A stretch of DNA of 64,000 bases, taken from Oscillatoria sp. FACHB-1407 (GTDB lineage: Bacteria; Cyanobacteriota; Cyanobacteriia; Elainellales; Elainellaceae). The number at the start of each line of letters is the position of its first letter. Within the stretch, counting starts at the first letter, position 1. Shown in pieces: positions 3,538-22,472 of this stretch. Location of the stretch: assembly GCF_014697545.1 (NCBI RefSeq), contig NZ_JACJSA010000024.1, positions 62,001 through 126,000 of the forward strand, written 5' to 3'. The notes beneath the pieces were generated by a model. It did no database searches. It was given only the letters and a program-made list of their open reading frames with translations, and was not told the origin of the DNA. The position numbers and the translations under genes were made by a program.

Positions 3538-3867
3538 AGGTTGGTACTAATGCGAGTGTCCTGGTGCGGTGTCCCAAAAAAGGCAGGGGCAGAGGCGCGT
3601 TACTTACGTGTTCTGGGTTCAGTATTCCCACTTGCCTATTCTTTGTTACTTCATGAAGGAACTGTCATCAGGGAATGATTTTCAGCAACAATCCCCAAAT
3701 GCTTGAAGGACGAGACGCAGAAACCCGGTTTCTCTAAGAAAAACCGAAGATTCAGTCAGTATTTTCTTCACCTGAATCCTGTCCCTAACTCGGTGGTATC
3801 CCCAACGTGAACTAATTGACGTTAGGATATTTGAATACCTAATTTGATAAAGGCTTGAAGTAGAAGG
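3538..3867. other. Intergenic region between divergent genes
   Basis: 330 bases separating the minus-strand methyltransferases from the plus-strand peptidases, so it should hold two promoters. It contains a short palindrome of the widespread cyanobacterial type AGAAACC-C-GGTTTCT near 3720. It also has an imperfect inverted repeat (TATCCCCAACGT at 3797-3808 against ACGTTAGGATA at 3819-3829). The inner part of the second arm, read in reverse (TAACGTCAATT), matches the terminus of the MITE-like repeat found at 11.5 and 22.4 kb, so this could be a remnant. No gene was seen. Confidence 0.5.
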
Positions 3868-11475: not shown

Positions 11476-11635
11476 CCTAATCTAATGTCAATTCGGGTTA
11501 AGCACCTGGCGAAGCAATTCACAGAGTACGAAAATCAAGGGTTTGCCGAACCGATATTAGGTCGGTCTTGCTCTTGTAGCTGCGGTTTCAACCGCCAAGA
11601 TCCGGATCCCAAACTCAGGTGAATTTACGAAGAGG
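11476..11635. repeat. MITE-like dispersed repeat, copy A
   Basis: About 150-160 bases that align, as the reverse complement, along their whole length with 22294-22472. Matching blocks include the end (AATGTCAATTCGGGTTAAG against AACGTCAGTTTGGTTTAAG), the CCTGG-GAA-AATTC segment, the hairpin GAACCGA...GTCGGT, the block GCGGTTTCAACCGCC and the other end GAATTTACG. This copy lacks about 38 bases (one hairpin) that copy B carries and has a ~9-base extra segment near its right end. The ends are imperfect inverted repeats. There is no ORF inside, as expected for a non-autonomous element. Confidence 0.7.
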
Positions 11636-11665: not shown

Positions 11666-11893
11666 ATGGCACAGACGATTCAAGCCCATCTGATCAAGCT
11701 GTCTGAGTTAAAGAACAAATTTGGGTTACCGCTGGTTCGCGATCCATGATTTTTCCCAGAGTGGACAGGTACGACGGCAGAAATCAGCGAGTTAGAGCAA
11801 TTCTGGCTGGATCGGGTGCAGACTAACTTCACGTCATTACTCGAAGATCCACTTGTATTGGAGAACAGTTTAGTCTTTCCTGCTTTCTTGTAA
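11666..11893 (+). pseudogene. Truncated, stop-interrupted remnant of a conserved cyanobacterial nuclease-like gene
   Basis: Translation from the ATG gives MAQTIQAHLIKLSELKNKFG..., then an in-frame TGA (11747-11749) after 27 residues. The same frame then continues sensibly (FFPEWTGTTAEISELEQFWLDRVQTNF...) to a TAA at 11891. From memory this matches the N terminus of a common cyanobacterial protein of about 200 residues often annotated as a restriction endonuclease or type I restriction subunit R-like protein; the C-terminal nuclease part is absent. Its 3' end runs into the tail of the converging methyltransferase gene, and the MITE-like repeat lies 30 bases upstream. Both the premature stop and the truncation indicate a dead gene; the family name is from recall. 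Confidence 0.6.
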
Positions 11894-14697: not shown

Positions 14698-14885
14698 CCT
14701 TTCCTGTGCGACGCAGGAAATAGAGTGAATAAGCAGCCCGGCGGCATCCTGGCTCGTAGTTTGGAATCACAAGATAAAGCAGGCGATCGCACTCATCTTC
14801 GATTGAAAGCCCGTTGATCCTTGCTACATTACAGTTGCGGCACAGCACCGGAATTAAACCGGACTTTCCCGACAGAGCTACTGTT
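14698..14885 (-). promoter_or_regulatory. Cobalamin (AdoCbl-type) riboswitch upstream of cbiX
   Basis: Read on the minus strand the leader has the class hallmarks in order: GGGAAAGTCCGG...TTCCGG (14850-14870), the near-invariant GCCGCAACTGTAA (B12-box core, 14829-14841) and GAGCCAGGATGCCGCC (14740-14755). These are followed by a hairpin TTTCCTG...CAGGAAA (14700-14720) that directly abuts the GGAG ribosome-binding site (14696-14699). That layout suggests control of translation initiation: cobalamin binding would restrict ribosome access to cbiX. The motif match is direct; the mechanism is inferred. Confidence 0.9.
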
Positions 14886-15035
14886 CACTAGTGCTCCGTT
14901 ATCTTACCCTATTGGCGATCGCCCCAAAATGCCGGGAGTGGGGAGCCGCAAGAAAAAGGCTGAAGGATGAAGGCTCAAGGCTAAAAGAATTCCAATCTAT
15001 AGCCATCCTAATTTGATTCATGAAAAAGTTTGAGA

Positions 15036-15103: not shown

Positions 15104-15257
15104 TTGCTGACCATACACAAATGACGCATGAAAGAGTAGGTTTCACGATCGATTTAGAACTGCTATATGATGCATCTTTCTTCCTTCAGCCTTTAGCCTT
15201 TAGCCTTTTCTTTTTTTCTTCTTCCTTTTTCCCTCTTCTTTTTTCTTTCTTCTGAAT

Positions 15258-22293: not shown

Positions 22294-22472
22294 CCTATTT
22301 AACGTAAATTCGGGATAAGGATTTCGGTGGTTAAAACCGCCGCTATCGGAGCAAAACCGACCTGCGTCGGTTCGTCAAATCCTGCCTTTTCCGGAGTCCG
22401 CGTCGGTGGACTTCGCTCTAGTAGCCGCGAATTCATTCACCAGGCTCTTAAACCAAACTGACGTTATTTAGG
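22294..22472. repeat. MITE-like dispersed repeat, copy B (inverted relative to copy A)
   Basis: About 175 bases filling the gap between the ferritin-like gene and mobA. The ends CCTATTTAACGT and (reverse complement of the other side) CCTAAATAACGT are imperfect terminal inverted repeats; a TATTTA on each side could alternatively be a target duplication. Inside are three hairpins: GGTGGTT/AACCGCC (22328-22343), AACCGAC/GTCGGTT (22355-22372) and AGTCCGC/GTGGACT (22395-22412). The first two match copy A at 11476-11635; the third is missing there. No coding frame. Confidence 0.72.

Follow-up and report, generated by a model that had tools for sequence, protein, structure and literature searches.

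Two copies of one element in the window

The window, that is, the whole 64,000-nucleotide stretch of DNA analysed here, carries two copies of a short element in opposite orientation, both of which lie between convergent genes. The earlier note had described blocks at 11476–11635 and 22294–22472 as reverse complements of each other including both ends, and this was borne out: blastn within the window aligns them in reverse complement over 94 bp at 73% (E = 1.35e-12), and a profile built from 77 seeds detects both, copy B at E = 6.5e-53 and copy A at E = 3.1e-23. As the seed pattern called for 120–150 bases between the ends, which exceeds the spacing in copy A, this copy should not have contributed to the profile as a seed. 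The pair is real, although the element proper occupies 11485–11620 and 22302–22464 rather than the full blocks.

Copy B (22302–22464, minus strand), the limits of which were set from its ends and its duplications, is a full element of 163 bp with 95.7% identity to the consensus. Its left TIR, ACGTCAGTTTGGTTTAAG, lies at 22447–22464 (minus strand) and was compared with IS982 ends, its right TIR, read from the outer end, lies at 22302–22319 (plus strand), and the element is flanked by an exact 6-bp direct repeat, TATTTA, as a target duplication on its low (22296–22301) and high (22465–22470) sides. A four-hairpin REPIN-like core, recognized by its separability from the ends and by its structure, corresponds to consensus positions 24–139 and was placed by counting at 22326–22441 (minus strand).

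Copy A (11485–11620, plus strand) is a diverged copy of 136 bp with 74% identity to the consensus and a left end of the AACGTCAATTCGGG kind. It was said to have lost about 38 bases; its net shortfall is 27 bp and the missing part is hairpin 2, and the remaining core, placed by counting and by alignment, covers 11508–11596 (plus strand). The sequences TAATCTA (11478–11484) on its left and GAATTTA (11621–11627) on its right agree by eye at five of seven positions and constitute a putative target duplication. The outer CCTAA, read previously as the end of the element, turned out to be target DNA, the ends themselves beginning with ACGT; it derives from the target duplications of the family, which are mostly of the form T-A-N(1–3)-T-A and are often bounded by C...G.

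At a supposed solo end near 3814–3824 the 11 letters are present, but the profile gives no match there at E ≤ 1. A decayed gene had also been proposed at 11666–11893 (plus strand): the sequence does show a broken frame, interrupted in frame by a stop codon after 27 codons, and the remaining, larger piece of 47 amino acids matches no Pfam family. The sole match in the window at an Rfam gathering score is a cobalamin riboswitch (RF00174) at 14723–14892 (minus strand), with 32 bits against a gathering score of 31.5; in this search the element copies matched no Rfam 15 family at the gathering score.

Copy number, target sites and IS982 ends

The family is much larger than the two copies from which it was recognized. 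In the draft host genome (8.13 Mb in 66 contigs), there are 293 (148 + 145) occurrences of the end pattern TAACGTSARTTCGGK, one mismatch being allowed, versus nine (4 + 5) of the reversed control, and at least 41 element matches were obtained with 40 of 332 candidates scored. Within 1.02 Mb of host sequence, which was chosen largely around ends and is not a fair sample, the profile matches 152 places at E ≤ 1e-3, 71 of them near full length; 51 of these 71 copies are 89–98% identical to the consensus, and a second group with the left end AACGTCAATTCGGG shows about 76–82% identity to it. The exact 31-base left-interior pattern had no match in a named genome collection that may omit the host. 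Like a MITE, the element is short (163 bp), is without a transposase gene and is present in many copies. A further repeat, GTGTTGCGAACACAA...TTTTTTGCTGTACTAG, some 100 bp long, was seen at the same point inside three element copies (L040:1741–1840, L051:6876–6973 and L084:9133–9232), and is also found elsewhere, including L050 and L071.

Exact direct repeats of 6–8 bp flank 37 of the 71 near-full copies (6 bp in 22, 7 bp in 14 and 8 bp in one), whereas 1000 shuffles average 2.4 and never exceed nine. The other 34 copies lack any exact duplication of at least 4 bp; if one mismatch is allowed, 15 further copies are gained, a number not clearly above the 10.7 of the shuffles. These lengths fall within the range of the IS982 family. 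Element limits of AACGT...ACGTT were rejected, since they give duplications of 4–5 bp; the limits ACGT...ACGT are preferred because they give duplications of 6–7 bp with a better margin over the shuffles and agree with the AC ends of IS982. When the joined flanks of the 71 copies were searched in the same host sequence, 20 found a relative, with a modal gap of 4 in nine, of 5 in two and of 0–3, which is ambiguous, in nine. Since the element was counted here with one extra base at either end, a gap of 4 corresponds to a duplication of 6 bp and a gap of 5 to one of 7 bp. The clearest of these empty sites are at C30:20898 (8/8 relatives with gap 4), C22:76845 (4/4), C12:133417 (2/2) and C10:60931 (32/35 with gap 5), so that within-genome relatives of the empty site exist for some copies. 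A multi-copy host repeat, ACAACTCGTCGTAAATAAGGGTGGGAAT...GGGGTGCAGGGG (L082:9227–9300, L076:15104–15183, L059:1594–1670 and others), has been hit by the element repeatedly and accounts for several of the empty sites.

Among 386 genomes drawn from the phylum, the exact end pattern occurs in 35, the host included. In two of these (G332 and G305), pairs of ends 0.92–1.09 kb apart enclose a transposase of the NCBIfam IS982 family (165 and 192 bits; cut-off 130) with the Pfam domain DDE_Tnp_1_3, so a transposase lying between like ends was found, in genomes other than the host. At 18 IS982 loci checked, like ends (at most four mismatches) are present on both sides at eight, on one side at two and on neither at eight; one pair is asymmetric in the same way as the MITE, GGTTTAAG / GGGATAAG, and other pairs read GGGTTAAG / GGGATAAG. 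The TIRs therefore match those of IS982-family insertion sequences, beginning with AC. A scan of named genomes located a 20-base end, TAACGTSAGTTCGGGATAAG, in no fewer than 117 stretches. At 80 of these loci the sequence inward of the end was examined: an IS982-like transposase is present at 12, 27 without a transposase stop within 350 bp and 41 are without a transposase despite room for one. In 27 of these 41, a second end lies 62–312 bp away (21 with at most two mismatches), and these are further MITE-like elements, in records titled as members of the cyanobacteria, Chloroflexi, Acidobacteria and Bacteroidetes, among others. Taken together, it is close to certain that the element has IS982 ends and has transposed in the past.

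In three genomes of the host's own family (G012, G015 and G003), the host element matches, among the matches listed, are confined to the terminal 35 bases, and same-family genomes contain 122-bp elements in which ends of the IS982 type enclose another interior. Such 122-bp elements were noted at L175, L178 and L180 (same-family genomes) and at L189, L209, L243, L247 and L252 (Leptolyngbya sp. FACHB-8); they have two long hairpins, the stem sequences of which differ between copies. In another phylum, 101-bp elements with IS982-type ends were seen at L215, L227, L229 and L258 (Chloroflexi MAG NC_groundwater_1991).

No IS982 transposase was matched in the host by protein or family search, the assembly being a 66-contig draft in which a collapsed or unassembled insertion sequence is possible. 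A search for an autonomous partner inside the host gave the same outcome, as 16 partial ends read inward enter other sequence and lead to no IS982 gene. In the IS982 family search 16 of 21 genomes matched at E ≤ 0.001, nine of them above the cut-off, and in a second search three of ten genomes passed it; G145 and G122 contain the ends with no IS982 match at E ≤ 0.001, and G003 and G012 contain many IS982-type ends with only weak IS982 matches, below the cut-off. A parental IS982 in the same genome, absent from these results for the host, is found in G504, a genome of the same family, which has one intact IS982 gene (261 bits, an open frame of 303 amino acids). The element around this gene is bounded by ACGTGAGTACGGGATAAG / ACGTCAGTACGGGTTAAG, and inspection by eye finds it flanked by an exact repeat of TAGCTA. 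G504 contains 18 long matches to its own version of the composite element, five of them 98–100% identical to the query, and ten of the 18 have exact duplications of 6–8 bp (shuffled mean 0.81, maximum 4). Given the gene, the near-identical copies and the duplications, the element gives the impression of recent activity in a genome that has the transposase.

The four-hairpin core and the Y1 transposase gene

The core of about 116 bp consists of four hairpins in two inverted halves. The first half comprises a hairpin GGCGAATnAATTCGC, a strand GGCTAC.. and a hairpin AAGTCCGCC..GCGGACT, and after a spacer the second half comprises a hairpin AACCSACG.AGGTSGGTT, a strand ..GTAG and a hairpin GCGGTTT.AACCGCC. 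When the consensus was searched in 291 genomes of the class, with two candidates scored per genome and hence as a lower bound, matches at E ≤ 1e-5 were found in at least 25, including the host. G504 matches consensus positions 1–163 and G554 positions 14–163, and in the other 22 genomes the listed matches all fall within positions 10–141. The core is accordingly separable, occurring without IS982 ends in 22 other genomes of the class; a first reading, based on 29 relatives without a match, that the interior was private to the host was overturned by this wider search. A full-length relative with 75% identity is present in filamentous cyanobacterium LEGE 07170 (locus L242).

Covariation was assessed on 24 cores from 18 genomes, with the structure written from the first sequence. 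Of 785 cells, 94.4% pair; changes on both sides are seen in 14 of 33 pairs, compared with 8.3 (s.d. 1.3) for shuffles, and the covariation score is 0.233 versus 0.102 (reached in 0/500 shuffles), falling to at most 0.069 when the partners are slid by 1–3 columns. As in REPINs, tagged palindromes are paired in inverted orientation, the tag being GTAG or ATAG in these cores. Among the 51 closest host copies, which are young and offer little power, no covariation was detected (one doubly changed cell versus a shuffled mean of 1.96), all 71 host copies give little signal (seven versus 5.5), and RNAalifold on the 71 finds almost no consensus structure. Stems and ends of the host copies change less than the unpaired positions (0.042 versus 0.074), which is some sign of constraint. 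The earlier description as a non-autonomous transposable or structured-RNA family thus stands in its first part, with many copies, inverted ends, duplications, empty sites and a transposase family whose ends match, and in so far as the element is structured with stems that covary between genomes; an RNA function would be no more than putative, in view of the lack of clear covariation among the host copies and of any Rfam match at the gathering score.

At 50 loci with Y1_Tnp genes (from 66 places listed), the surroundings of the gene were examined. The host Y1 gene at C8:252246–252590 (locus L338) has three core units upstream (two forward, one back) and two downstream (back). Its three closest relatives, in G504 (73% identity), G058 (58%) and G091 (54%), belong to three genera and adjoin one, seven and ten units, respectively; three of the other 46 loci have weaker core matches (E from 2e-5 to 3e-3), and in a control a core match was found at one of 30 IS982 loci. 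A Y1 gene flanked by the same repeats, as in REPIN systems, is therefore found with the core. Against the IS200/IS605 model the host Y1 protein scores 75.7 bits, above the cut-off of 55, and against the REP-transposase model 31.3 bits, below the cut-off of 80, for which reason the core is termed REPIN-like. From this arrangement of genes and repeats, the core is probably cognate to the Y1 system. Beside the Y1 gene of G091, a tandem array (L361:2–1413) of eight full cores and one cut by the end of the locus repeats with a 164-bp step.

The core is also found between other ends. In a loose test of 137 host core places, a sample chosen around IS982 ends, IS982-type ends were found on both sides at 66 and on one side at 44, type B ends and type C ends on one or both sides at five each, and none of these at 17, five of which are the units at L338. 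In a stricter test, type B (GGGTGCATCTG, 158–183 bp) has both ends at four of five places, and of these four, three have direct repeats (8/8, 9/9 and 8/9) and the fourth has none; type C (CCTGAYTGMCTGACAAA, 168–221 bp, mostly 195 bp) has both ends at five of six places, with repeats of 8/8 in G573, 7/7 in G320 and 6/7 at the other three (two in the host and one in G021). The repeats of both types were counted with no shuffled control, and for the type C end the host has 16 occurrences versus none for its control. The same core is thus enclosed by ends of three kinds, which differ in the length of their duplications. Whether the REPIN-like core, an HUH palindrome, was captured independently by at least three MITE classes (the IS982, GGGTGCATCTG and CCTGAYTGMCTGACAAA types) is, in our estimation, evenly balanced; if it was, the core hitch-hikes on several transposition systems, which could explain the spread of the palindrome between cyanobacterial families.

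Origin of the element and comparison with known systems

The pair in the window is, with good probability, two copies of a composite MITE in which IS982 ends carry a REPIN-like core. The outer part would consist of the roughly 18-bp TIRs belonging to an insertion sequence of the IS982 family, and a DDE transposase of this family, acting in trans at the ACGT ends (ACGTSARTTCGG ends), would have inserted the element into TA-N(1–3)-TA-like targets with duplication of 6–7 bp. The inner core of about 116 bp would be a REPIN-like element of a second, Y1 system (HUH, IS200/TnpA-type), carried as cargo between the IS982 ends; this is suggested by the units that flank a Y1 gene and that occur without IS982 ends. 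The copy number, the identity of the ends, the duplications, the empty-site relatives, the separability of core and ends and the core units at the Y1 gene are directly established; that an IS982 transposase, the gene of which is now not found in the host, was the mover there, that the Y1 protein acts on the core, and that it was the MITE that captured the core rather than the other way round, are what we infer from them. Several results count against this explanation: the lower rate of change in stems and ends, which is not what one would expect of a core carried as a purely neutral passenger; the lack of a host IS982 gene and the four genomes (G003, G012, G145 and G122) that have ends without a qualifying match; the eight of 18 IS982 loci without such ends, the 34 of 71 copies without an exact duplication and the nine ambiguous gaps among 20; and the failure of the host Y1 protein in the REP model together with the core match at one of 30 control loci.

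The ends and the duplications would by themselves be those of an ordinary IS982 MITE formed by internal deletion, inside which the hairpins arose in no relation to a second transposase, and elements with IS982 ends and unrelated two-hairpin interiors do exist; however, the core is found without these ends in 22 genomes, with other ends and around Y1 genes, and this origin is unlikely. Another explanation is prompted by the location of the copies. Only two of 107 elements lie inside an open reading frame, versus 62% of random 160-bp positions (on a simple ORF map, with 11 elements unplaced), and of the 94 intergenic elements 40 have convergent genes as neighbours, versus 21% of random intergenic positions. 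This excess, the covariation of the stems between genomes and their lower rate of change than unpaired positions in the host would suit an element kept mainly as a functional RNA, for example as a bidirectional terminator between convergent genes. Nevertheless, paired changes are not in excess among the 51 host copies, the folding of copy A does not surpass that of mononucleotide shuffles (z −0.6; copy B, z −2.9) and the purging of insertions near promoters also explains the location, so that a role of this kind is highly unlikely to be the main reason for the element. The intergenic and convergent placement is in keeping with a purging of insertions that are harmful and with the reported location of REPs, often between convergent genes (PMC3733652, available text), without establishing a terminator role. 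Movement of the whole element by the Y1 transposase alone, with incidental IS982-like ends, would account for a host with a Y1 gene and units and no IS982 gene found, yet it is barely credible, as the copies end at ACGT with 6–7 bp duplications, which transposition of the IS200/IS605 type is not known to generate.

The element described here is a new family of IS982-type MITEs, a known kind, the twist being an interior that is the palindrome of a second transposon system. In its available text, the description of MITECca01 of Cardinium cOegib, an IS982-derived MITE with 169 copies, gives an element that is likewise short, lacks a transposase, has the ends of an IS982-family insertion sequence and is abundant and lineage-specific (PMC9769881). 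Unlike the window element, MITECca01 is about 240 bp long, has its parental insertion sequence, ISCca4, in the same genome and has conserved insertion-sequence DNA beside its ends, and no REP-like core is described in that text (PMC9769881). From the accessible part of the IS982 paper, the family shares with the window element ends beginning with AC, a similar inverted-repeat length and a variable duplication length; the parent element is about 1 kb, whereas the window element has no gene, and its ends fit the published AC(N)6T but do not follow with TT exactly (PMC7335449). The word MITE does not appear in the accessible text of that paper, nor IS982 in the main text, as available, of a review of prokaryotic MITEs (PMC10969869). 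REPs with a GTAG tag have been published for cyanobacteria, as have Y1 subclasses with double-foot REPs, and the core resembles REP/REPIN systems with a Y1 protein (RAYT, TnpAREP), in the available text of these sources, in its GTAG-like tagged palindromes, its inverted pairs and its units around a Y1 gene (PMC3733652, PMC6006769). In contrast to REPs and REPINs, most copies of the window family examined, in a sample chosen around such ends, lie inside IS982-type ends, and the host Y1 protein passes the IS200/IS605 model and not the REP model. Small dispersed repeats of Nostoc are reportedly structured, 21–27 nt in length and subject to compensatory changes, some of them inside mini-transposons (Elhai, 2008), and would resemble the core in these respects but for their length. 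Full-text literature searches, mostly outside subscription papers, found no announcement of MITEs of this kind with a REP-like core.

It is usual to regard MITEs and small palindromic repeats as distinct classes, each with its own mover. One core that occurs without ends, around an HUH transposase gene and in three kinds of MITE suggests a testable route by which REP-like palindromes may enter new genomes, and the host provides a case of a MITE that outlives its transposase or is fed by it in trans. Among other repeats of the host, runs of heptamers such as CATCCTT / TATCCTT were observed at L057:12317–12710 and L079:9892–10010, and in the window at about 15173–15208.
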